Source: Lyngbya sp. HA4199-MV5
GTDB taxonomy: Bacteria > Cyanobacteriota > Cyanobacteriia > Leptolyngbyales > Leptolyngbyaceae
Length of the DNA: 64,000 nucleotides
Direction of reading: 5' to 3'
Assembly (NCBI GenBank): GCA_019359375.1
Contig: JAHHHL010000036.1
Coordinates: 1 to 64,000 of the forward strand
Positions 36,568 to 64,000 of the stretch are shown here, in pieces. The notes below the pieces were generated by a model. The model made no database searches. It worked only from the letters and a program-made list of their open reading frames with translations, and was not told the origin of the DNA. The number at the start of each line of letters is the position of its first letter. Position 1 is the stretch's first letter. Position numbers and translations under genes: made by a program.

Positions 36568-36638
36568 CGAGAAGCCTTTCGTCTCTGACTCGGAGCTGAG
36601 AGCGATAGAATGGGAAAGATTATTTTTTCCCTGCCCCT

Positions 36639-39600
36639 ATGCCCGATCGCGCTAACGGTTCTAAGAAAGCTAATGGCTCCAAGAAGCCCCTGGCTGAGTC
36701 GCATGACGATCATCCCGCCAGTCATGCCATTGCCCAAAATACGATTCGCATTCGAGGCGCACGCCAGCACAACCTGAAAGATATTGACCTGGAGCTACCC
36801 CGCGATCGCCTGATTGTGTTTACAGGCGTTTCCGGTTCGGGCAAATCCTCACTAGCGTTTGACACCATTTTTGCCGAAGGGCAGCGTCGCTATGTCGAAT
36901 CGCTGAGCGCCTATGCCCGCCAGTTTTTGGGGCAGGTGGATAAGCCCGATGTAGACGCGATCGAAGGCTTGAGTCCTGCCATTTCCATCGACCAAAAATC
37001 GACCTCTCATAACCCGCGATCGACCGTTGGCACCGTCACCGAAATCTATGACTATCTGCGGCTACTGTATGGACGGGCAGGCATTCCTCATTGCCCCCAC
37101 TGCGATCGCTCCATTTCGCCTCAGAGTATTGACCAAATGGTCGATCGGGTGATGGAACTGCCCGATCGCACCCGCTTTCAAATTCTCGCGCCCGTCGTTC
37201 GGGGCAAAAAAGGGACGCACAAAAAGCAGATTTCCAGTCTGGCTGCCGATGGCTTTGTGCGGGTTCGCATTAATGGCGAAGTGCGAGAACTGAGTGACGC
37301 GATCGAACTCGATAAGAACCAGTCGCACACGATCGAAATTGTGGTCGATCGACTGGTCAAAAAAGCAGGCATTGAAGAACGGCTCACCGATTCGCTGGGC
37401 ACCTGCTTGAAGCATTCGGGTGGCATTGCGGTGATTGACATTCTGCAAGAGGCAGAGGGCAGAGGGCAGAAGGCAGAAGGCAACGTGGTCGAGCTTCCTA
37501 CAGGGCAATCTCTTCGCGCTGCCGAAAAAGGCGGCGATTACCAAGCCTCTGACCCCTCTCACCTCTCACCTCTCACCTCTCCTCTAGTCTTCTCCGAAAA
37601 CTTCGCTTGCCCCGAACACGGCGCTGTCATGGAAGAACTGTCCCCCCGGCTGTTCTCCTTCAACTCGCCTTACGGTGCCTGCCCTGCCTGTCATGGCTTG
37701 GGAAGTCATCGCAAGTTTTCGGCAGAACTGGTGGTACCCAATCCTGATCTGCCTGTGTATGCGGCGATCGCGCCCTGGTCTGACAAAGACAACACCTACT
37801 ATCTCTCGCTGCTCTGTAGCGTTGCGGCAGCGTTTGGTTTTGATATTCAGACCCAGTGGAGCCAGTTGACGGATGAACAGCGTCACATCTTGCTGCACGG
37901 TTCTAAAGAGGCGATCTGGATTGAAACCGACTCTCGCTACCGGCAGAGCAAGGGCTATCAGCGAAAGTATGAAGGGGCATTGCCACTGCTAGAGAAGCAA
38001 TATCAAGAAGCGAATTCAGATGTTTACAAGCAAAAGCTAGAGCAATATTTAGTGGATCAGCCGTGCGAAGACTGTAAGGGCAGGCGGCTCAAGCCAGAAG
38101 CGCTATCGGTCAAGCTGGGGCAGTTCCGCATTGCTGATTTGACGGGTGTTTCCATTCGAGACTGTCTGAATCAGGTGAACAGTATTGAGTTGAGCCCGCG
38201 GCAGGCGCAAATTGCCGATCTGGTGCTGCGTGAGATTAAAGCCCGATTGCAGTTTTTGCTAGATGTGGGGCTGGATTACCTGACGCTGAATCGGACTGCC
38301 ATGACGCTCTCCGGCGGTGAAGCACAGCGCATTCGACTGGCAACGCAGATCGGCTCTGGGCTGACGGGCGTTCTCTATGTCCTGGATGAACCCAGCATTG
38401 GGCTGCACCAGCGCGATAATGCCCGCTTGCTCAAAACCCTGCATCGTCTCCGCAACCTGGGCAACACGCTCATTGTGGTGGAACATGACGAAGAAACGAT
38501 TCGCGCTGCCGATTATGTTGTAGATATTGGTCCCGGTGCTGGTGTACACGGTGGACGCATTGTCTCTCAGGGCAGTTTGCAGGCAATGCTGGATGCGCCT
38601 GATTCTCTGACGGGAGCGTATTTGTCGGGACGACAGGTTATCACAACGCCTGCTCAACGCCGATCGGGCAATGGTCGTGCGCTCAAAATCCGTAATGCCT
38701 ACCGCAATAACCTGAAGCGCATTGATGTCGAGATTCCCCTGGGCAAACTCGTGTCTGTGACGGGCGTATCGGGTTCGGGCAAATCGACGCTCATTAATGA
38801 ATTGCTTTATCCATCGCTACAAAACCACTTTGGCAGCAAAACGCCTCAACCAAAAGAAATGGAGCCGATCGCAGGCTTAAGCGCCTTGGACAAGGCGATC
38901 GTCATTGACCAATCCCCGATCGGGCGCACTCCCCGCTCCAACCCCGCCACCTATACGGGCACCTTCGATATCATTCGGGATGTCTTCGCGGAGACGATCG
39001 AGGCGAAAGCCAGAGGTTATAAGCCCGGTCAGTTTTCCTTTAACGTCAAAGGTGGACGCTGTGAAGCTTGCGGTGGTCAGGGCGTAAACGTCATTGAAAT
39101 GAACTTTCTGCCCGATGTCTACGTGCAGTGCGAAGTGTGCAAAGGTGCCCGCTACAACCGCGAAACGCTTCAGGTGAAGTTCAAAGGGAAGTCGATCGCC
39201 GATGTGTTGGGCATGACCGTCGATGAAGCCCTGGAGTTTTGCAAAAACATTCCTCAAGCCGCCGCGAAACTGCAAACCCTGGTGGATGTCGGTTTAGGCT
39301 ATGTACGCTTAGGACAAACCGCACCAACTCTGTCAGGTGGCGAAGCGCAACGGGTCAAGTTGGCAACCGAACTCTCTCGCCGTGCCACAGGTAAAACCCT
39401 TTACCTCATCGACGAACCCACCACAGGTCTCTCTTTCTACGATGTTCACAAACTCCTGGACGTGCTGCAACGTCTCGTAGACAAAGGCAATACCGTGTTG
39501 GTCATCGAACATAATCTGGACGTGATTCGCTGTTCTGACTGGGTGATTGACCTGGGACCCGAAGGGGGCGATCGAGGGGGCGAAATCATCGCGGTAGGCA

Positions 39601-39695
39601 CCCCTGAAGAAGTCGCCGAAAACACCCGTTCCCACACAGGTTATTACCTCAAGCAAGTCTTACAGCAATATCCACCCGTCCCGGCTACGGCATAG
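36639..39695 (+). CDS. uvrA: Excinuclease ABC subunit A, with an extra repeat-encoded block
   Basis: 1018-residue UvrA, the DNA damage-recognition ATPase of nucleotide excision repair. Visible parts are two Walker A motifs (GVSGSGKSSLAFD near 66, GVSGSGKSTLINE near 709), two ABC signature motifs (LSGGEAQRIRLA, LSGGEAQRVKLA) and two zinc modules (CPACHGLG...CEDCKGRR; CEACGGQG...CEVCKGARYN). Residues 271-315 are an extra block: it is encoded by heptamer repeats and lies between VIDIL and LVFSENFACPEHG, which adjoin or nearly adjoin in other UvrA. The frame is kept through it. The ATG at 36639 has no clear Shine-Dalgarno motif. Confidence 0.97.
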   Translation: MPDRANGSKKANGSKKPLAESHDDHPASHAIAQNTIRIRGARQHNLKDIDLELPRDRLIVFTGVSGSGKSSLAFDTIFAEGQRRYVESLSAYARQFLGQVDKPDVDAIEGLSPAISIDQKSTSHNPRSTVGTVTEIYDYLRLLYGRAGIPHCPHCDRSISPQSIDQMVDRVMELPDRTRFQILAPVVRGKKGTHKKQISSLAADGFVRVRINGEVRELSDAIELDKNQSHTIEIVVDRLVKKAGIEERLTDSLGTCLKHSGGIAVIDILQEAEGRGQKAEGNVVELPTGQSLRAAEKGGDYQASDPSHLSPLTSPLVFSENFACPEHGAVMEELSPRLFSFNSPYGACPACHGLGSHRKFSAELVVPNPDLPVYAAIAPWSDKDNTYYLSLLCSVAAAFGFDIQTQWSQLTDEQRHILLHGSKEAIWIETDSRYRQSKGYQRKYEGALPLLEKQYQEANSDVYKQKLEQYLVDQPCEDCKGRRLKPEALSVKLGQFRIADLTGVSIRDCLNQVNSIELSPRQAQIADLVLREIKARLQFLLDVGLDYLTLNRTAMTLSGGEAQRIRLATQIGSGLTGVLYVLDEPSIGLHQRDNARLLKTLHRLRNLGNTLIVVEHDEETIRAADYVVDIGPGAGVHGGRIVSQGSLQAMLDAPDSLTGAYLSGRQVITTPAQRRSGNGRALKIRNAYRNNLKRIDVEIPLGKLVSVTGVSGSGKSTLINELLYPSLQNHFGSKTPQPKEMEPIAGLSALDKAIVIDQSPIGRTPRSNPATYTGTFDIIRDVFAETIEAKARGYKPGQFSFNVKGGRCEACGGQGVNVIEMNFLPDVYVQCEVCKGARYNRETLQVKFKGKSIADVLGMTVDEALEFCKNIPQAAAKLQTLVDVGLGYVRLGQTAPTLSGGEAQRVKLATELSRRATGKTLYLIDEPTTGLSFYDVHKLLDVLQRLVDKGNTVLVIEHNLDVIRCSDWVIDLGPEGGDRGGEIIAVGTPEEVAENTRSHTGYYLKQVLQQYPPVPATA
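37451..37581. repeat. Heptamer repeats inside uvrA
   Basis: Four GGCAGA(G/A) heptamers (37451-37478) and three CCTCTCA heptamers (37555-37575, plus a partial unit) flank about 75 bp of non-repetitive sequence. GGCAGA(A/G) arrays of the same unit lie between genes at 50190-50217. Confidence 0.9.
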
Positions 39696-51673: not shown

Positions 51674-51804
51674 CTCTATAAACTTTGGTTCTGTATTGAG
51701 TAGAATAAACGCTTCTGTGGGGCACTGGAAGAGGTGAGCGGGAAGGGGGAGTGGGGAGTGGGGAATGGGGAATGGGGGGCAGAGGAGGCAGGGGAGGCAG
51801 AAGA

Positions 51805-51832
51805 GTCGGGAGTCGGGAGTCGGGAGTCGGGA
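51805..51832. repeat. GTCGGGA heptamer array
   Basis: Four exact copies of GTCGGGA in the spacer upstream of accC, within a longer purine-rich block (51725-51855). Confidence 0.9.
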
Positions 51833-51929
51833 ATGGGGGGCAGAGGAGGCAGAGGGAGCAACTCAAAACTCAAAACTTTTTAGCCTTTAGCCTTTCTTCC
51901 TCTAACAACTAAAAACTAACAACCAACAA

Positions 51930-52640
51930 CTACTTCTCACACTGACAGCTATCCTTCAGTTGATGCATGACAGCTGGGGCAAGTCCGCCCCAGAGGGGAG
52001 TATTTACGTCAGCCGATCGCAGTCCATCGGCTGTCCAGGAATTGCAGGTTTTAAGTGCAGAATAGCGTCCAGTGGCGGCATAGAAGCTGCTGTCGCCATC
52101 ATGCCCGCTGCTAATGCGTGCCTTCCCCTGACTGTTGGTTTGAAAGGAGGCTTCGAGAAAGTGCATTAACTTCAGGTAGTGAGGTCGATCCAGGCTGATG
52201 CACTTGACGGTTTCGGTGGGGTAGTGGGGAACGGTGCTGTGTCCTTTGACGAAGAGGGCGGCGGGGTTTTGCAGCAGGAGCGATCGCAGTGCGCTGGAGA
52301 TGCTGATCTTATCCCAGGACGATGTTTCCACGTAAAAGATGCGATCGCCCCAGCCAAACTGGAGATAGCGGTAGTCGGCAGGCGCGCTTTTACCAAGCGT
52401 GGTTAGGTTGAGGTGCTGGCTCCAGTCGAAGGCATTGTTACGAACGGGCACAAAAAAGTTGGTGTGCATGGCACCGCCTGCTACATAAACTCTATAGTTG
52501 CAGTCTGCCTGCTGGGGTGGTGCGTGCCACTGGCGGGGTGTGACAGCGGCGATCGTCAGGAGCGCAATCGTTCCCAGAATGCCGCACAGCCCATATAGCC
52601 CCACCCGTCCAACTCGCTTCCAGACAGACCGATCGTTCAT
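51930..52640 (-). CDS. DUF2459/TIGR02117 family protein
   Basis: 236-residue protein. An N-terminal hydrophobic helix (GLYGLCGILGTIALLTIAAVTP) is a signal or anchor. Typical family segments follow: GGAMHTNFFVPVRN, YRYLQFGWGDRIFYVETSSW and YSALKTCNSWTADGLRSADV. The Cys-His type pair (HT and TCN) suggests a cysteine-hydrolase-like site, but no activity is proven. It would lie on the periplasmic side. Confidence 0.82.
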   Translation of the reverse strand: MNDRSVWKRVGRVGLYGLCGILGTIALLTIAAVTPRQWHAPPQQADCNYRVYVAGGAMHTNFFVPVRNNAFDWSQHLNLTTLGKSAPADYRYLQFGWGDRIFYVETSSWDKISISSALRSLLLQNPAALFVKGHSTVPHYPTETVKCISLDRPHYLKLMHFLEASFQTNSQGKARISSGHDGDSSFYAATGRYSALKTCNSWTADGLRSADVNTPLWGGLAPAVMHQLKDSCQCEK

Positions 52641-54613: not shown

Positions 54614-55141
54614 TCATCCCTCCAACACAACAGCGATCGTCACTGCCCCCCTTGTTTCTGCTGAACGGTAGCATTGCTTGGGAACATGGAGGACGGGTAT
54701 AGGGTGTAGGGTGTAGGGTGTGGGAAACTGCTTGAGATAGCTCTCTCCGCGCCTCTGCGTCTCTGCGGTTAGTTCACCCCCTCCCCCTGCCTCCCAACAC
54801 GCTAAGAGAGCCGCCGCCTCAGCAACGCTAGGAGTGCCAATCGCTTCCTCGATCGCGCTCGATGCATGGGGCACCACTACCGATCGGAGCCGTTCTGCGG
54901 CATAAAAAAAGAGAGGCAGAGACCGATCGCAACAAAATTCGATCAGTCCCGCCTCATTCACTTTTGTGTCGATCGTCGCCACCCCTGCGATCGCGCTTTC
55001 ATCCAGCCGATGCACTTCAAAGATCGACCGCATCGCTTGCTCAATCAACCGCTTGGGCGTACCCCGCTTGCAGCCGATCCCCACCCAAAAGACCTGGAGA
55101 GGAAATGGCTCTTGAGATATGCCAGGAGCGATCGATACCAC
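54614..55141 (-). CDS. cobE: CobE/CbiG C-terminal-type protein, with a repeat-encoded insert
   Basis: 175-residue cobalamin-pathway protein of the CobE/CbiG C-terminal type: VFWVGIGCKRGTPKRLIEQAM, LDESAIAGVATIDTKVNEAGL, ERLRSVVVPHASSAIEEAIGTPSVAEAAALLA. The family end reads GGEL-VPKQ; here GGEL is followed by 28 extra residues (125-152: TAETQRRGESYLKQFPTPYT and 8 more) before VPKQ. Those residues are encoded by GGGTGTA-type heptamers and a CTCTGCGTCTCTGCGG-type repeat found between genes in cyanobacteria. The rest is intact. The start is GTG. It lies 5 bases downstream of ndhB. Confidence 0.85.
   Translation of the reverse strand: MVSIAPGISQEPFPLQVFWVGIGCKRGTPKRLIEQAMRSIFEVHRLDESAIAGVATIDTKVNEAGLIEFCCDRSLPLFFYAAERLRSVVVPHASSAIEEAIGTPSVAEAAALLACWEAGGGGELTAETQRRGESYLKQFPTPYTLHPIPVLHVPKQCYRSAETRGAVTIAVVLEG
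54695..54722. repeat. GGGT(A/G)TA heptamer array inside cobE
   Basis: Four heptamers (GGGTATA, GGGTGTA, GGGTGTA, GGGTGTG) on the plus strand, within the 84-bp insert (54686-54769). The length 84 is both 12 x 7 and a multiple of three. Confidence 0.9.
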
Positions 55142-55146
55142 ACTCT

Positions 55147-56733
55147 TTAGCTTTTACGATCGGCATCGATCGTCGGAGCCAATGCCGCTTCAGGCACAGT
55201 CGCATCCCGATTCGCCGTGAGCGACAACTGTTGCAGGATAGGCGTTTGGGTCACGGCGCTATTTGCCAGTGCAAACAGTGGGTTTGAGAGAATGCCAGCC
55301 ACGGAGGTTACTATCGCCGTTGTCACCAGCCCCACTTGCAGCGATCGCATTCCAGGCAGGCTCCAGCTAATGGCGGGATAGTTTTTCACAGAATCGGACA
55401 TCTCTTGCGGTTCCTTCACCACCATCATCTTGACCACGCGGATGTAGTAGTAAATCGAGATGACGCTGGTAATTAAGCCCAACAGCACCAAGCCGTAAGC
55501 GCCTGCCTGCCAGCCTGCCCAGAACAGGTAAATTTTGCCGAAGAACCCAACCAGTGGGGGAATGCCGCCCAACGACAGCAAACACAGGCTCAGGCAGAGA
55601 GTCAACAGCGGGTCTTTCTGGTACAAGCCCGCGTATTCGCTAATCTGGTCTGTCCCGGTTCGCAGCGAGAACAAAATAACGCCCATGAATGCGCCCAGGT
55701 TCATAAACAGATAGGAAATCAGGTAGAAGATCAGACTGGCATAGCCCGCATCACTGTCGATCACCAAACCGATCATGATGAAGCCTGCTTGCCCAATGGA
55801 CGAATACGCCAACAGACGCTTCATGCTGGTCTGTGCCAGCGCGACCACATTGCCCAGCACCAGACTGAGGACTGCCAGCGCCGCCATGACCAGGTGCCAT
55901 TCCTGGGTCAGCAAGGGAAATGCGGTTACGAGCAGACGAATTGCCAGCGCAAAGCCAGCCGCTTTAGATCCCACCGAGAGAAACGCCACAACCGGGGTAG
56001 GCGCACCTTCGTAGACATCAGGTGTCCACTGGTGAAACGGTACAGCCGCGATTTTGAAGGCGATCCCCGCGATCGCAAAGACCAGCGCAATCACCAAACC
56101 TAACGACTGTCTGGAACCCGTGTCTGCAATGCTTCCCGCGATCGCGCTCAGGGTCGTTTCCCCACCCGACAGTCCATACAGCAGCGAGAGACCGTAGAGA
56201 AAAATCGCCGAACTGGATGCGCCAATCAGCAGGTATTTCAGCGATGCCTCATTGGAGCGGGGATCGCGCTTGGTATAGCCCGTCAGAAGATACGACGAAA
56301 TACTCAGCGTTTCCAGCGAGACAAAGATCATGACTAGCTCATCCGCGCCAGAGAGGAACATCCCCCCGATCGTGGCGGTCAGCAAAATCGATAGGAACTC
56401 TGCCAGGGAAGTGCCAGAGCGATCGATGTAGCTAATCGACATCAGAATCGTTACCACGGCTGATAGCGCCACAATGCCCCGTAGAAGGACACTCAGCGCA
56501 TCACCGTTAAAGCTGCCTAAAAAGGAGATCGGGTTTGACGTATCCCACTGGTAGTAGAGCGCGACCACCGCCGCCAGTAGCCCCGCGATCGAGACATAGG
56601 GGGTCCAGCGCGAGGAGGCAGTGCGTCCCACAATTAAGTCACCCACAATGACAAGCATGAGGGTGGTAATGACAATGCCTTCTGGCAGAATCGTTCCAGC
56701 GTTAAGCTGAGCAGCAAGCGTGGCGAAATCCAT
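55147..56733 (-). CDS. ndhB: NAD(P)H-quinone oxidoreductase subunit NdhB
   Basis: 528-residue NdhB with about fourteen transmembrane helices. It starts [19 protein letters not shown], then [30 protein letters not shown] and [26 protein letters not shown], which contain the conserved Glu, Lys and His of proton-pumping antiporter-like subunits. It is part of the NDH-1 complexes for cyclic electron flow, respiration and CO2 uptake. The ATG at 56733 is the family start. Confidence 0.96.
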
Positions 56734-57139: not shown

Positions 57140-59866
57140 ATGTCAAAGCTTGTCATCGTCGAGTCGCCCACCAAAGCACGCACCATCCGCAATTACCTTC
57201 CTGCGGGGTATCGGGTAGAGGCATCAATGGGGCATGTGCGCGATTTGCCACAGTCTGCGAGTGAAATTCCCGCCAGCGTGAAGGGCGAAAAGTGGGCACC
57301 ACTCGGCGTGAACGTAGAGGCAAACTTTGAGCCGCTCTACGTCGTACCCCAAGACAAGAAAAAGATTGTCAAAGAGCTGAAAGAAGCCCTGAAAGCGGCA
57401 GACGAACTCATTCTGGCGACTGACGAAGACCGGGAAGGCGAAAGCATTAGCTGGCACCTGCTGCAACTGCTCAAGCCCAACGTGCCCATCAAGCGCATGG
57501 TGTTTCACGAAATTACCGAAGACGCGATTCGTGAAGCGATTCGCAATTGCCGGGATGTGGATGAACGGCTAGTCCGTGCCCAAGAAACTCGCCGCATTCT
57601 CGATCGCCTCGTGGGCTACACCCTTTCTCCCCTCCTGTGGAAAAAAATTGCCTTCGGACTTTCGGCGGGACGAGTGCAATCGGTTTCGGTTCGCTTGCTC
57701 GTTAGACGTGAGCGCCAGAGACGGGCATTCCGGCAGGGCAGCTACTGGGATTTGAAGGCAACGCTAGAAGCTGGGAGCCAAGAGAAGCAAGCGTTTGAAG
57801 CGCGGTTAGTCACTCTGGCAGGTGTTCGCGTTGCCAACGGCAGTGACTTTGATGAAGCGACGGGACAGGTCATTGCGGGACGAAACGTGGTGCTGCTAAA
57901 CGAGGCAGAAGCACGAACGTTGCAAGATCGAATTCGCGATCGCCCCTGGACGGTCACCAACCTGGAAGAACGTCCCGTTACCCGCAAACCCTCGCCACCC
58001 TTTACCACCTCCACCCTGCAACAGGAGGCAAACCGCAAACTAGGGCTTTCTGCCCGTGACACGATGCGGACTGCCCAGAGCCTCTACGAGCAAGGCTACA
58101 TCACCTACATGCGAACGGACTCTGTAAGTCTGTCCCAGCAGGCGATTACCGCCGCCCGCGATTGTGTGCAATCCATGTACGGTGCCGAATACCTCAGTCC
58201 AGAGCCGCGCAAATACTCGACCAAAAGCAAGGGCGCTCAGGAGGCACACGAAGCGATCCGTCCCTCTGGCAGCAGCTTCCGTACTCCACAGCAAACCGGA
58301 CTCAAAGACCGCGAGTTTCGTCTGTATGACCTCATCTGGAAGCGCACCGTCGCCACGCAGATGGCAGAAGTGCGGCAAACCCACGTCACGGTGCAAATTC
58401 AGGTCGAAGATGGCGTGTTTCGTGCCAGCGGCAAGCGCATCGATTTTGCAGGCTTTTTCCGCGCCTATGTGGAAGGGTCAGACGATCCCAACGCGGCGAT
58501 CGAAGATCAGGAGATCATCCTTCCCCCCCTGCAAGTCGGCACCACACCTACCTGCACAGACCTGGAGGCGATCGGGCACGAAACGCAGCCACCCGCCCGA
58601 TTCACCGAAGCCTCTCTCGTCAAGACGCTGGAAAGCGAAGGCATTGGTCGTCCCAGTACCTATGCCAGCATCATTGGTACGATTATCGATCGGGGCTACG
58701 CCAACATGGTGGGGAATGCCCTGGTGCCCACCTTCACCGCCTTTGCCGTCACTGCCCTGCTCGAAAAACACTTCCCCGACCTGGTAGATACGGGGTTTAC
58801 CGCTCGCATGGAACATGCCCTGGACGAAATTTCCACGGGCGCTGTGGAATGGCTCCCATACCTGAAAGAGTTCTACCTGGGCGATACCGGACTCGAAACC
58901 CAGGTCAAAGACCGTGAGAGCGAAATTGATCCCACCGAGGCACGCACCGTTGATCTGGAGAATCTGGTAGCAAAAGTCCGTATCGGTCGCTTTGGAGCCT
59001 ACATCGAAGCCGAAAATGGCGATGGCATGGTCAAAGCGTCCATCCCCAAAGATTTGACTCCAGCAGATCTTGATCCTGCTCAGGTGGAAGTGCTGCTGCG
59101 CCAAAAAACTGAAGGACCCGATAAGGTCGGGCTGCATCCCGAAACGGGCGAACCGATCTACCTTAAAATCGGCGCTTACGGTCCCTACGTGCAGCTTGGC
59201 GACGACTCCGAGGCAAACCCCAAGCCCAAACGTGCTTCCCTACCCAAAGGCGTAACACCCGACACGCTCACCCTGGAACAAGCCGTAGGCTTGCTCAAGC
59301 TACCCCGTCTCCTGGGCACCCATCCCGAATCAGGCGGCAAAATTCAGGCGAGCCTGGGTCGTTTTGGTCCTTACGTGGTGTTGGATCAGGGCAAGGGCGT
59401 GAAGGAATATCGCTCCATCAAAGCAGGCGACGATGTGCTAACCATTACCCTCGATCGCGCCCTCGAAATGCTGGCAGAACCCAAAACCGGACGCGGCAAA
59501 CGCGCGGTAGCCAAACCCATCCGCGAACTCGGTGCCCATCCTGAAGACGGCGAACCCGTGAATATCTATGATGGTCCTTACGGTCCTTACATCAAGCACG
59601 GCAAGGTAAATGCCTCGCTACCCGAAGGCGAAACCGTCGAAGCGATCGCCATGACCACAGCCGTTGAAGCCCTCAATGCCAAGGCAGGAACCAAGAAGGG
59701 CGGGCGATCGCGCAAAGCCAGCACTGCTGCCTCTGAAACCACGAAAGCCACCAAAGCCAGCACCACCAAAAAGACCGCCGCCAAAACGACTGGCACCAAA
59801 AAAACAACCGCCAAGAAAACCACCACCAAAAAATCCACCGCCAGCAAGAAAGCCTCCGCAACCTGA
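57140..59866 (+). CDS. topA: DNA topoisomerase I
   Basis: 908-residue type IA topoisomerase that relaxes negative supercoils. The Toprim domain shows [15 protein letters not shown] and [17 protein letters not shown]. The nucleophile is Tyr323 in [13 protein letters not shown]. After the core come three to four C-terminal repeats ([21 protein letters not shown] type). The last 60 residues are a Lys/Ala/Thr-rich tail ([18 protein letters not shown]), likely a DNA-binding tail. The length is normal for cyanobacteria. Confidence 0.96.
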
Positions 59867-62696: not shown

Positions 62697-64000
62697 TCAC
62701 CATCCCGCCTCAATCTGCCTTACAGCCGTTAATGCCGAATAGCTCACCCCTGCCGTTCCCTCACCGGGATGGGTTGAATCTCCGACCAACCAGAGGTTCC
62801 GAATAGGTGTGCGATTTGCAAAGCCAAAGGGACCAAACGTGGGCACTCGTTGACCAATGCCGCCAACCACACCTCGATCGCGCCCTGTAAAGTGGGCAAA
62901 CGTCCGGGGAGTCGCCGCTTCCACCAATAAAATGGTTTCATCGTCGAGGTTGAAGAACTGGGCGAGACGGGCGATCGCCTCATCGGTGTAGCGCTGTTTG
63001 AGGGAATGGTAGGAGGGGTGAGGGGTGAGGGGTGAGGGGTGAGTTTCGAGTTCAACCTTTTGCCTTTTACCTTCTACCTTTTGCCTTTTGCCCTCTCCCC
63101 ACCAAAGCCTGGTATCCGTAAACGATGACGCAATAATCGTCGCCTTTCCCTCTGGTGCCCGACCATCACCGGGACGACTGACTGAAACGAAGAGGGAGTT
63201 GTTTTCGCCGATCGCGCCCTCGTAGTCGTACAAAAATTGCAGATGGGGCGGACAATCTTCGGGAATGGCACGTTCATCAACACCCAGGTACACCACAAAC
63301 GCGCCAGAACTCGGCGGCAGTTTCTCCACCCGTCGCTGATAGCCACTCGGAGACTCGTCGCCTAATAGTTGCATCAAATTTTGCACCGTCACATTTGCGA
63401 CGACATGATCGGCGGTTTCTGTCCAGATTTCATCAGTCTTCTGGTTGCGGATCGTCACTCCTGTCACCTGCCCCTTTGCGGTGTAAATCGCTTCAACCGT
63501 ATGGCGCATGAGGAGTTTGCCACCATCCCGTTCTAGCGAGGCAACCAGGCGATCGCTCAACGCCTGCATACTGCCGTGGAGGTGAAACAACCCCTGTGGC
63601 TCTTGCGAAACGCCCAAAGCTGTCGCGGCATAGAGCAAAGCCGTCTCCTCGGCATCGACTTGAGAGTAAAGCTTGAGTTGCAAATCAAGAAACGTCCGTA
63701 ACCGCTGATTGTCTGCCAAGCCGTAGCCGCGAAGGGCATCCCCGACGGTGGAAAAGGTATGGGGCAGTGTCAGTAGGGTATTGGGTCGCACGGCTTTGGT
63801 TAATTGCCACAAATCCCACACGTTGCGGGGCGGCAAGACTGGATCACGAGACTGAAATGCCCAACTGTAGCGAAATAGGTCAGACAATAGTTGCCAGAAG
63901 GGTTCGCTGCCTGGAAATTGCCGTTGACGCTCAGCCTGCCATCGCTGCGGGTCACGCCACACGTTAATCGGCTCGGTTTCTCCAGGCAAATAGACCGCAC
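62697..64000 (-). CDS. crtD: C-3',4' desaturase CrtD (partial, 5' end outside window)
   Basis: At least 434 residues of a CrtD-type carotenoid desaturase; the frame runs open to the window edge, so the FAD-binding N-terminus is missing. The typical text is FQSRDPVLPPRNVWDLWQLT, AVRPNTLLTLPHTFSTVGDA, VSQEPQGLFHLHGSMQALSD, and the end RTPIRNLWLVGDSTHPGEG. CrtD makes the extra double bond of myxol-type glycosides. About 28 extra residues (WGEGKRQKVEGKRQKVELET and 8 more) lie between LWW and YHSLKQRY. They are encoded by heptamers and keep the frame. Confidence 0.9.
   Translation of the reverse strand, partial: AVYLPGETEPINVWRDPQRWQAERQRQFPGSEPFWQLLSDLFRYSWAFQSRDPVLPPRNVWDLWQLTKAVRPNTLLTLPHTFSTVGDALRGYGLADNQRLRTFLDLQLKLYSQVDAEETALLYAATALGVSQEPQGLFHLHGSMQALSDRLVASLERDGGKLLMRHTVEAIYTAKGQVTGVTIRNQKTDEIWTETADHVVANVTVQNLMQLLGDESPSGYQRRVEKLPPSSGAFVVYLGVDERAIPEDCPPHLQFLYDYEGAIGENNSLFVSVSRPGDGRAPEGKATIIASSFTDTRLWWGEGKRQKVEGKRQKVELETHPSPLTPHPSYHSLKQRYTDEAIARLAQFFNLDDETILLVEAATPRTFAHFTGRDRGVVGGIGQRVPTFGPFGFANRTPIRNLWLVGDSTHPGEGTAGVSYSALTAVRQIEAGW
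63015..63090. repeat. Heptamer repeats inside crtD
   Basis: On the plus strand, four GGGGTGA units (63015-63042) and five CCTTTT(G/A)-type units (63056-63090). They encode the insert of the crtD product. Confidence 0.9.

Follow-up and report, generated by a model that had tools for sequence, protein, structure and literature searches.

An in-frame heptamer element in a cyanobacterial crtD gene and the polarity of two-arm heptamer repeats in its genome

Heptamer repeats of cyanobacteria have long been known and are, to our knowledge, still unexplained; those called STRR were reportedly described by Mazel in 1990. Rickettsia palindromic elements (RPEs) are dispersed repeats that lie in frame inside protein genes, and the head-to-head interstitial telomere repeats of eukaryotes consist of a G-rich array followed by a C-rich array. 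RPEs are named in the available excerpts of PMC2635572. Heptanucleotide repeats are present in Calothrix PCC 7601, and Rehm 2015 reported GGGGA(C/T)T quadruplex repeats in Nostoc PCC 7120 and GGGAATC repeats in Xanthomonas, with the G strand being the coding strand just after stop codons and the non-coding strand just before start codons (PMC4692102, excerpts). The P6b loop of the Nostoc tRNA-Leu intron also contains heptanucleotide repeats (PMC4476775, excerpts), and TAACTGA direct repeats are dispersed in Beggiatoaceae and cyanobacteria, mostly just upstream of start codons (PMC4679880, excerpts).

The repeats described here are best filed as in-gene members of the STRR-type heptamer repeats, in a polar two-arm form. 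They are made of seven-base tandem units of several types, with many dispersed copies per genome lying mostly outside genes, as are the STRR repeats. They differ from STRR repeats by forming two-arm elements with a fixed G-then-C order and by in-frame inserts in conserved genes, the units of which turn over at one site. RPEs are defined palindromic elements, whereas the present ones are tandem heptamer arrays with mostly non-complementary arms; telomere repeats have one fixed unit and a known enzyme, whereas the present arrays have many units. With the Nostoc and Xanthomonas heptamers they have in common their G-rich nature, some intragenic copies and lengths that vary among close relatives, but the excerpts of that study describe single G-rich arrays, with only a few paired repeats in Nostoc able to form inverted repeats (PMC4692102). 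The gene-end half of the polarity reported below is thus already described there (Rehm, PMC4692102, excerpts), and the present genome shows the same orientation. The polarity of the arms is the surprise here; the excerpts of PMC4692102 hold neither a G-to-C arm order nor a same-site comparison of in-gene inserts. In the tRNA-Leu intron, two heptamer classes replace one another at one site, as do the units at the CrtD site, but their arms pair in an RNA stem and the intron is non-coding (PMC4476775, excerpts). The TAACTGA repeats are likewise dispersed heptamer direct repeats, but have one fixed unit and their own preferred location (PMC4679880, excerpts). In the open-licence literature, available partly as excerpts, we found no account of a G-to-C arm order or of same-site heptamer inserts in cyanobacterial proteins.

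We analysed a window of 64,000 nucleotides from Lyngbya sp. HA4199-MV5, which ends inside crtD. At a score of at least 12 the window contains nine arrays of period 7 and one of period 12, and none of the remaining periods from 4 to 12. Period-7 arrays number 9 at a score of at least 13 and 20 at a score of at least 9, compared with means of 0 and 0.15 in 20 first-order Markov versions of the window. The frame of crtD in the window is open and without a stop, and the full open frame in the genome is 537 aa long. The fragment scored 590.1 bits against TIGR02733 (NCBIfam), above the equivalog cut-off of 549.7, and a Pfam search of the same fragment gave no match. The insert (63013-63096) encodes GEGKRQKVEGKRQKVELETHPSPLTPHPS, i.e., 29 residues flanked by LWW and YHSLKQRY. 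TRF, the TIGR02733 match and the open frame thus confirm the claim of the sequence-only reading that heptamer arrays lie in frame inside crtD between these two motifs. That reading had counted about 28 extra residues; the insert is indeed there, but as 79 of 102 aligned rows have 3-4 residues at this position, the net gain is about 25 residues. On the crtD sense strand the CCTTTTG-type arm is purine-rich (GGCAAAA). Over its 31 nt the GAGGGGT arm is free of mismatches and has four GGGG runs, the number of G-tracts that make up a quadruplex, and one strand offers a hairpin by pairing GGUGAGG with UUUUGCC via G-U.

Table 1. Positions in the window of the three array-bearing genes and of their arrays
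Feature	Position	Strand	Description
uvrA	36609-39692	plus	
AGGCAGA array in uvrA	37451..37482		left site (G arm)
CCTCTCA array in uvrA	37555..37581		right site (C arm)
cobE	54617-55153	minus	PF01890 CbiG_C
GGGTGTA array in cobE	54695..54721		C-rich on cobE sense strand; part of composite insert
crtD (C-3',4' desaturase CrtD)	62697..63998	minus	ORF of 433 codons, 5' part past window end
GAGGGGT array in crtD	63013..63043		4.4 copies (TRF, 100% match); C-rich on crtD sense strand; 3' arm of insert
Centre between the two crtD arms	63044..63055		12 nt; from the sequence
CCTTTTG-type array in crtD	63056..63092		5.3 copies (TRF, 86% match); 5' arm of insert

An AlphaFold2 model of the 433-residue CrtD fragment, built with 34 relatives, had a mean pLDDT of 65, and residues 303-326 of the insert fell below 50 between better-supported elements. 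This low model confidence is consistent with a flexible loop, but only in a supportive way, as other parts of the model are weak too and the N-terminal part is missing. One solved relative was found, the gamma-carotene desaturase structure 4rep. Elsewhere in the window (59761-59843) there is a 15/30-nt tandem repeat (CACCGCCAAAAAAAC) with no relation to the heptamers.

The sequence-only reading had placed uvrA and cobE beside crtD as genes with a purine-rich array next to a pyrimidine-rich one. For uvrA the in-frame heptamers are confirmed, but the two arrays are not adjacent: 72 nt of conserved coding sequence separate them. The middle of this linker (NVVELPTG...AAEKGG.Y) is recognisable in most of 24 aligned rows, and the arrays sit at its ends. 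The left site carries, depending on the species, either AGGCAGA or units resembling GTCAGGA, and the right site various C-rich units. In the UvrA of array-free relatives the linker is already charged on the left and P-rich on the right, so that the units of this gene may be chosen by selection for a certain protein composition. As for cobE, one of the two arrays attributed to it is found and there is no second heptamer array; in this genome the insert, between ALLAC and VPKQ, combines the one array with a G-rich stretch and a dispersed repeat that is not heptameric. Five genus members have this insert or a remodelled form of it, and two (G001, G002) lack it. An in-frame stretch resembling a dispersed repeat (54740-54772) reads AETQRRGE, and the same site in G006 reads AETQRRRE. 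On contig C14 of G006, uvrA, cobE and crtD follow one another as they do here and at similar distances.

We then compared the CrtD site among relatives. A search of 58 genomes gave matches in 57, some of them by weak, paralogue-like or contig-end matches alone. The alignment comprised 30 fetched loci and 80 loci of named genomes, minus 8 that repeated a genome, i.e., 102 rows, which still include 6 identical pairs; the named neighbours include Leptolyngbya sp. FACHB-321, Tildeniella nuda and Stenomitos frigidus. Counted from WW to the Y of YxxLKQxY, the loop is 3-4 residues long in the 79 rows mentioned above and at least 12 in 15 of the 102. All seven genus members examined carry an in-frame insert at this site, with period-7 arrays in six and a period-8 array in the seventh. 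Nine of the 15 long loops contain a period-7 array, and in seven both arms are of period 7 (L031, L032, L037, L039, L041, L042, L048). The arms are GGCAAAA with CACCCCT in the present genome (G000), AGGCAGA/GGCAAAA with CACACCT in G003, and GGGGAGT with AACTCAA in G005; G006 has the units GTCAGRA, CTAACAA and AACTCAA, and similar arm pairs occur in G019, G021 and G014. Single-arm inserts were found in G002 (GAGTCGG) and G004 (AACTCAA), and no array in four long loops (L036, L038, L137, L144). The site also occurs with other repeats in place of heptamers, of period 8 in L035 (G001) and of period 18 in L047 (G018). AACTCAA is common to G004, G005, G006 and, in degenerate form, G001, and the arms of G000 and G003 are related; unit replacement at this site is therefore extensive but not complete.

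In a CrtD tree from which the insert columns were excluded, insert carriers require at least 5 changes, and 13 of the 15 long-loop rows fall within one group of 16 rows. We infer that the opening of the site dates back to an ancestor of the clade, and the replacement of its repeats to later times. Outside the insert, dN/dS was 0.032-0.059 in 21 within-genus pairs, with dS high and in many of them near saturation, and 0.062 in one pair without inserts. Such low values (about 0.05) indicate that the gene is under strong purifying selection while the loop changes. CrtD is thus an example of how a conserved enzyme can bear a loop that is in large part rewritten from one species to the next. Short nested palindrome-like non-heptamer elements, which also keep the frame, were seen in the crtD inserts of L042, L033, L035 and L041. 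A probable second insert site lies near residues 213-220, where gaps separate the matches in G010 (C1:6620160-6620326) and G017 (C15:104779-104864); in G010 a GTCAGGA array fills the gap between the two CrtD matches.

Unit types rise and fall on the scale of whole genomes. With overlapping matches counted, so that long arrays are counted several times, RGGCAGR occurs 1075 times in G000, whereas its congeners G001, G004 and G005 have 7 to 15 matches each. Outside the genus its arrays are patchy, with 190 overlapping matches in G034, 205 in G037 and none in many other relatives. Genomes tend to be rich in the units that their CrtD carries (exact P 0.041 for five units in seven genomes; P 0.013 with a sixth unit, the window's own CTCACCC, which was added after the counts had been seen). 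A control with units read backwards was uninformative for AACTCAA, which is identical when reversed, and for CTCACCC, the reverse of which is itself abundant. G004 is a counter-case, since AACTCAA is used in its CrtD although rare in its genome. There is thus modest support for an exchange of units between the CrtD insert and a genome-wide pool.

To see how the repeats are distributed, we took a sample of 1.264 Mb from the 6.91-Mb genome, with a mild bias because contigs were picked among those with a GGGGTGA match. It contained 275 arrays of period 7, 84 of period 14 and 21 of period 15, the counts for the other periods between 4 and 13 being 0-7. Arrays no more than 200 nt apart were grouped into 257 elements, of which 97 have two arms, 80 are G only, 74 C only and 6 unclear. 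Elements avoid genes: 52 of the 257 lie inside predicted genes, which make up 70% of the sample, and same-frame coding flanks, scored by coding hexamers over 150 nt on each side, were found for 35 of the 257 compared with 1305 of 3000 random placements of equal sizes. Thirty-four elements lie in one open frame, one has same-frame flanks and a stop, and six have flanks in different frames. The last seven appear to sit between the stop and the start of neighbouring genes, a reading made by eye from the frames rather than from homology, so that no broken gene was recognised by a frame test that is itself blind to genes already lost. These data uphold the proposal of the sequence-only reading that selection filters insertions in genes. 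Its other proposal, an insertion mechanism that favours keeping the frame, finds no support in the lengths of non-coding elements, which are even modulo 3 (77/73/71, with fuzzy element ends); selection rather than an insertion rule explains the frame, and a frame-keeping mechanism is unneeded. On average 40% of the six frames are open in non-coding elements, and 14% in those with several arrays. Four of the 34 in-frame elements are just 16 nt long and possibly ordinary coding sequence. None of 59 units in the coding arrays bears a stop, largely by construction, because 34 of the 36 coding elements had been picked as open, the other two being those of uvrA and C4:48503.

The order of the arms was strict. 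Among neighbouring arrays no more than 200 nt apart, labelled by G/C skew at a score of 9 or more, G was followed by C 91 times and C by G once; G-G and C-C pairs occur too. The purine-then-pyrimidine layout noted at the outset is therefore real in the genome sample, but both arms are of period 7 in only 7 of the 15 long CrtD inserts. The counts were 11 vs 22 at 201-1000 nt and 11 vs 86 beyond 1000 nt, a reversal expected if elements start with G and end with C. As the 97 two-arm elements were split at C-then-G, their internal order, also that of the 18 coding ones, is by construction, and the unbiased figure is 91 to 1. In other genomes G preceded C within 200 nt in 18 cases, with no reverse case (G010 12, G019 3, G030 2, G057 1), and in five of the nine other genomes no G array had a C array as its neighbour at this distance, three of these five being without arrays. 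A pool of 150 overlapping loci of relatives, including duplicates of the same genomes, gave 22 to 1. With the G array first on either strand, a host protein receives a stretch rich in Gly/Glu/Arg/Gln and then one rich in Pro/His/Ser/Thr, whatever the orientation of the gene.

Of the arrays that lie no more than 60 nt from either end of a predicted gene, 176 have a G strand directed outwards from the gene and 37 one directed at it (123:24 at 3' ends and 53:13 at 5' ends), counts in which arrays of one element are not independent. The skew at gene ends was 0.374 (3') and 0.211 (5') with arrays and 0.058 and 0.040 without. Around elements it drops off within about 60 nt; seeding of the arrays by flanking skew is thus disfavoured.

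We compared the unit consensus of cognate arms with that of arms swapped between elements. There was no significant excess of Watson-Crick matches (4.23 of 7 for cognate vs 4.10 for swapped arms, P 0.16, n 91). When G-U pairs were allowed on the best strand, cognate arms scored 5.32 and swapped arms 5.08 (P 0.013, n 91). This excess was stronger at gaps of 60 nt or less (P 0.002, n 42); no pairing excess was found at gaps over 60 nt (P 0.69 to 0.77, n 49), and after removal of the T-rich units it was absent and even slightly reversed (P 0.99 and 0.97, n 51). The T-rich sub-family GTTTTTA ... CTAACAA has a recurrent centre and looks like a defined dispersed element, which may be a genuinely paired one. 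In the other elements, those of the crtD kind included, the arms are not complementary beyond their composition. Arm hairpins as a general rule were dropped, as the G-U excess comes from short-gap and T-rich elements (P 0.97 without the latter).

Several alternative explanations were weighed. Local slippage at pre-existing G-rich or C-rich spots has been proposed for bacterial heptamer repeats (PMC4692102, excerpts, citing earlier work), and the units of the UvrA arrays suit the composition of the old linkers. As the whole explanation we consider it possible but doubtful, because unit types rise and fall across whole genomes (1075 RGGCAGR matches in G000 vs 7 to 15), the flanks have no supporting skew beyond 60 nt, and slippage alone gives no arm order. 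A seven-nucleotide unit necessarily shifts the frame when its copy number changes, and the GAGGGGT arm is a perfect tract, so crtD might be phase variable and switch the pigment pathway on and off. However, no internal stop was present in the crtD of related genomes among the matches listed, and array hosts are mostly housekeeping and repair genes, so that we find this idea barely credible. That all seven genus members examined retain an insert at this position of CrtD would agree with inserts being kept because they improve the host protein. The wide turnover of their sequence and length and the depletion of elements from coding sequence make this very unlikely as well. The earlier suggestion that the arrays may evolve surface loops is half upheld, an adaptive benefit aside: the units of CrtD and UvrA change between species in frame, and the CrtD loop is of low confidence in the model.

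None of the mechanisms that we considered explains the polarity fully. Mobile elements with inverted ends (MITE-like) or hairpins, whose ends are or once were complementary, would yield G on the left and C on the right, and both the G-U pairing above that of swapped arms (P 0.013) and the defined appearance of the T-rich sub-family agree with this. Yet Watson-Crick pairing shows no such signal (P 0.16), nothing is seen at gaps over 60 nt or without T-rich units, and the centres of elements have few 12-mers in common; we regard this origin as unlikely, and outside the one T-rich family the complementarity of the arms is too weak for inverted repeats to explain the polarity. Healing of DNA breaks by 3'-end addition would fit the layout and predicts the polarity: both flanks of a break would have heptamers of the G strand added at their 3' ends by an enzyme before being joined, which would leave a G array followed by a C array, as where telomere repeats are fused head to head, and with further breaks newer units would come to lie within older ones. 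In its favour are the strict order (91:1, and 18:0 in four other genomes), arm units that are mostly independent, a G strand directed away from genes at 3' and 5' ends alike, a local skew (~60 nt) that is weak at array-free gene ends, and several elements layered with different units. On the other side, the uvrA arms flank an old conserved coding stretch instead of a join, 37 of the 213 gene-end arrays point the opposite way, and we know of no enzyme that adds heptamers at break ends; we therefore hold break healing to be improbable too. In its cyanobacterial version, an end-healing activity would write variable heptamer caps and join them head to head, leaving G-then-C scars, an idea that we put forward with little confidence. 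If it were true, in-frame scars in tolerant loops would persist and be rewritten as the current unit of the genome changes. Reverse transcriptase as a maker of arrays was disfavoured: in a search of 58 genomes PF00078 had no match above the cut-off in G002, which is rich in arrays (94 and 477 matches to array patterns) and whose draft is possibly incomplete.

For the crtD insert, we think it likely that it is a two-arm cyanobacterial heptamer element in a length-tolerant loop of a functional CrtD. There is good support for the plain reading that known heptamer repeats were inserted in frame and tolerated here, with selection as the filter. Insertion would be blind to the frame, with gene-breaking cases removed by selection, and the arrays would then grow and change by slippage, perhaps also by exchange with the current unit pool of the genome. 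The polarity rule, i.e., an arm order of 91 to 1 and a G strand that points away from both gene ends, constrains any model of origin; neither simple slippage nor a role confined to one end of genes, be it the start or the stop, would predict it. Together, the strict arm order and the in-frame turnover point to a DNA process not yet described, combined with selection that keeps genes intact, and in-gene elements provide natural before-and-after sites for studying the origin of heptamer arrays.

The hosts of the coding elements were identified by their domains. From the 34 open elements without that of crtD, and with C4:48503, 25 frames were obtained, 22 of which had a Pfam match at 1e-6. By our reading of the domains, MutL carries two elements, MutS2 three, Mfd two and the cobalamin-dependent methionine synthase three, one of them of 16 nt. 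The other named hosts, read in the same way, are CobB/CbiA, RsmB, an SNF2 helicase, a P-type ATPase (two elements), an ABC transporter, a decarboxylase of the ornithine/DAP/arginine type and one transposase. Several array-bearing genes resemble DNA repair or helicase genes, namely of the MutL, MutS2, Mfd, SNF2 and UvrA types (L065:3842-5782, L093:1531-4266, L097:3-3605, L066:16718-19999 and window 36609-39692). Beside the biotin carboxylase gene of the window (51746-51930) there is a layered element of five arrays, with G types followed by C types.
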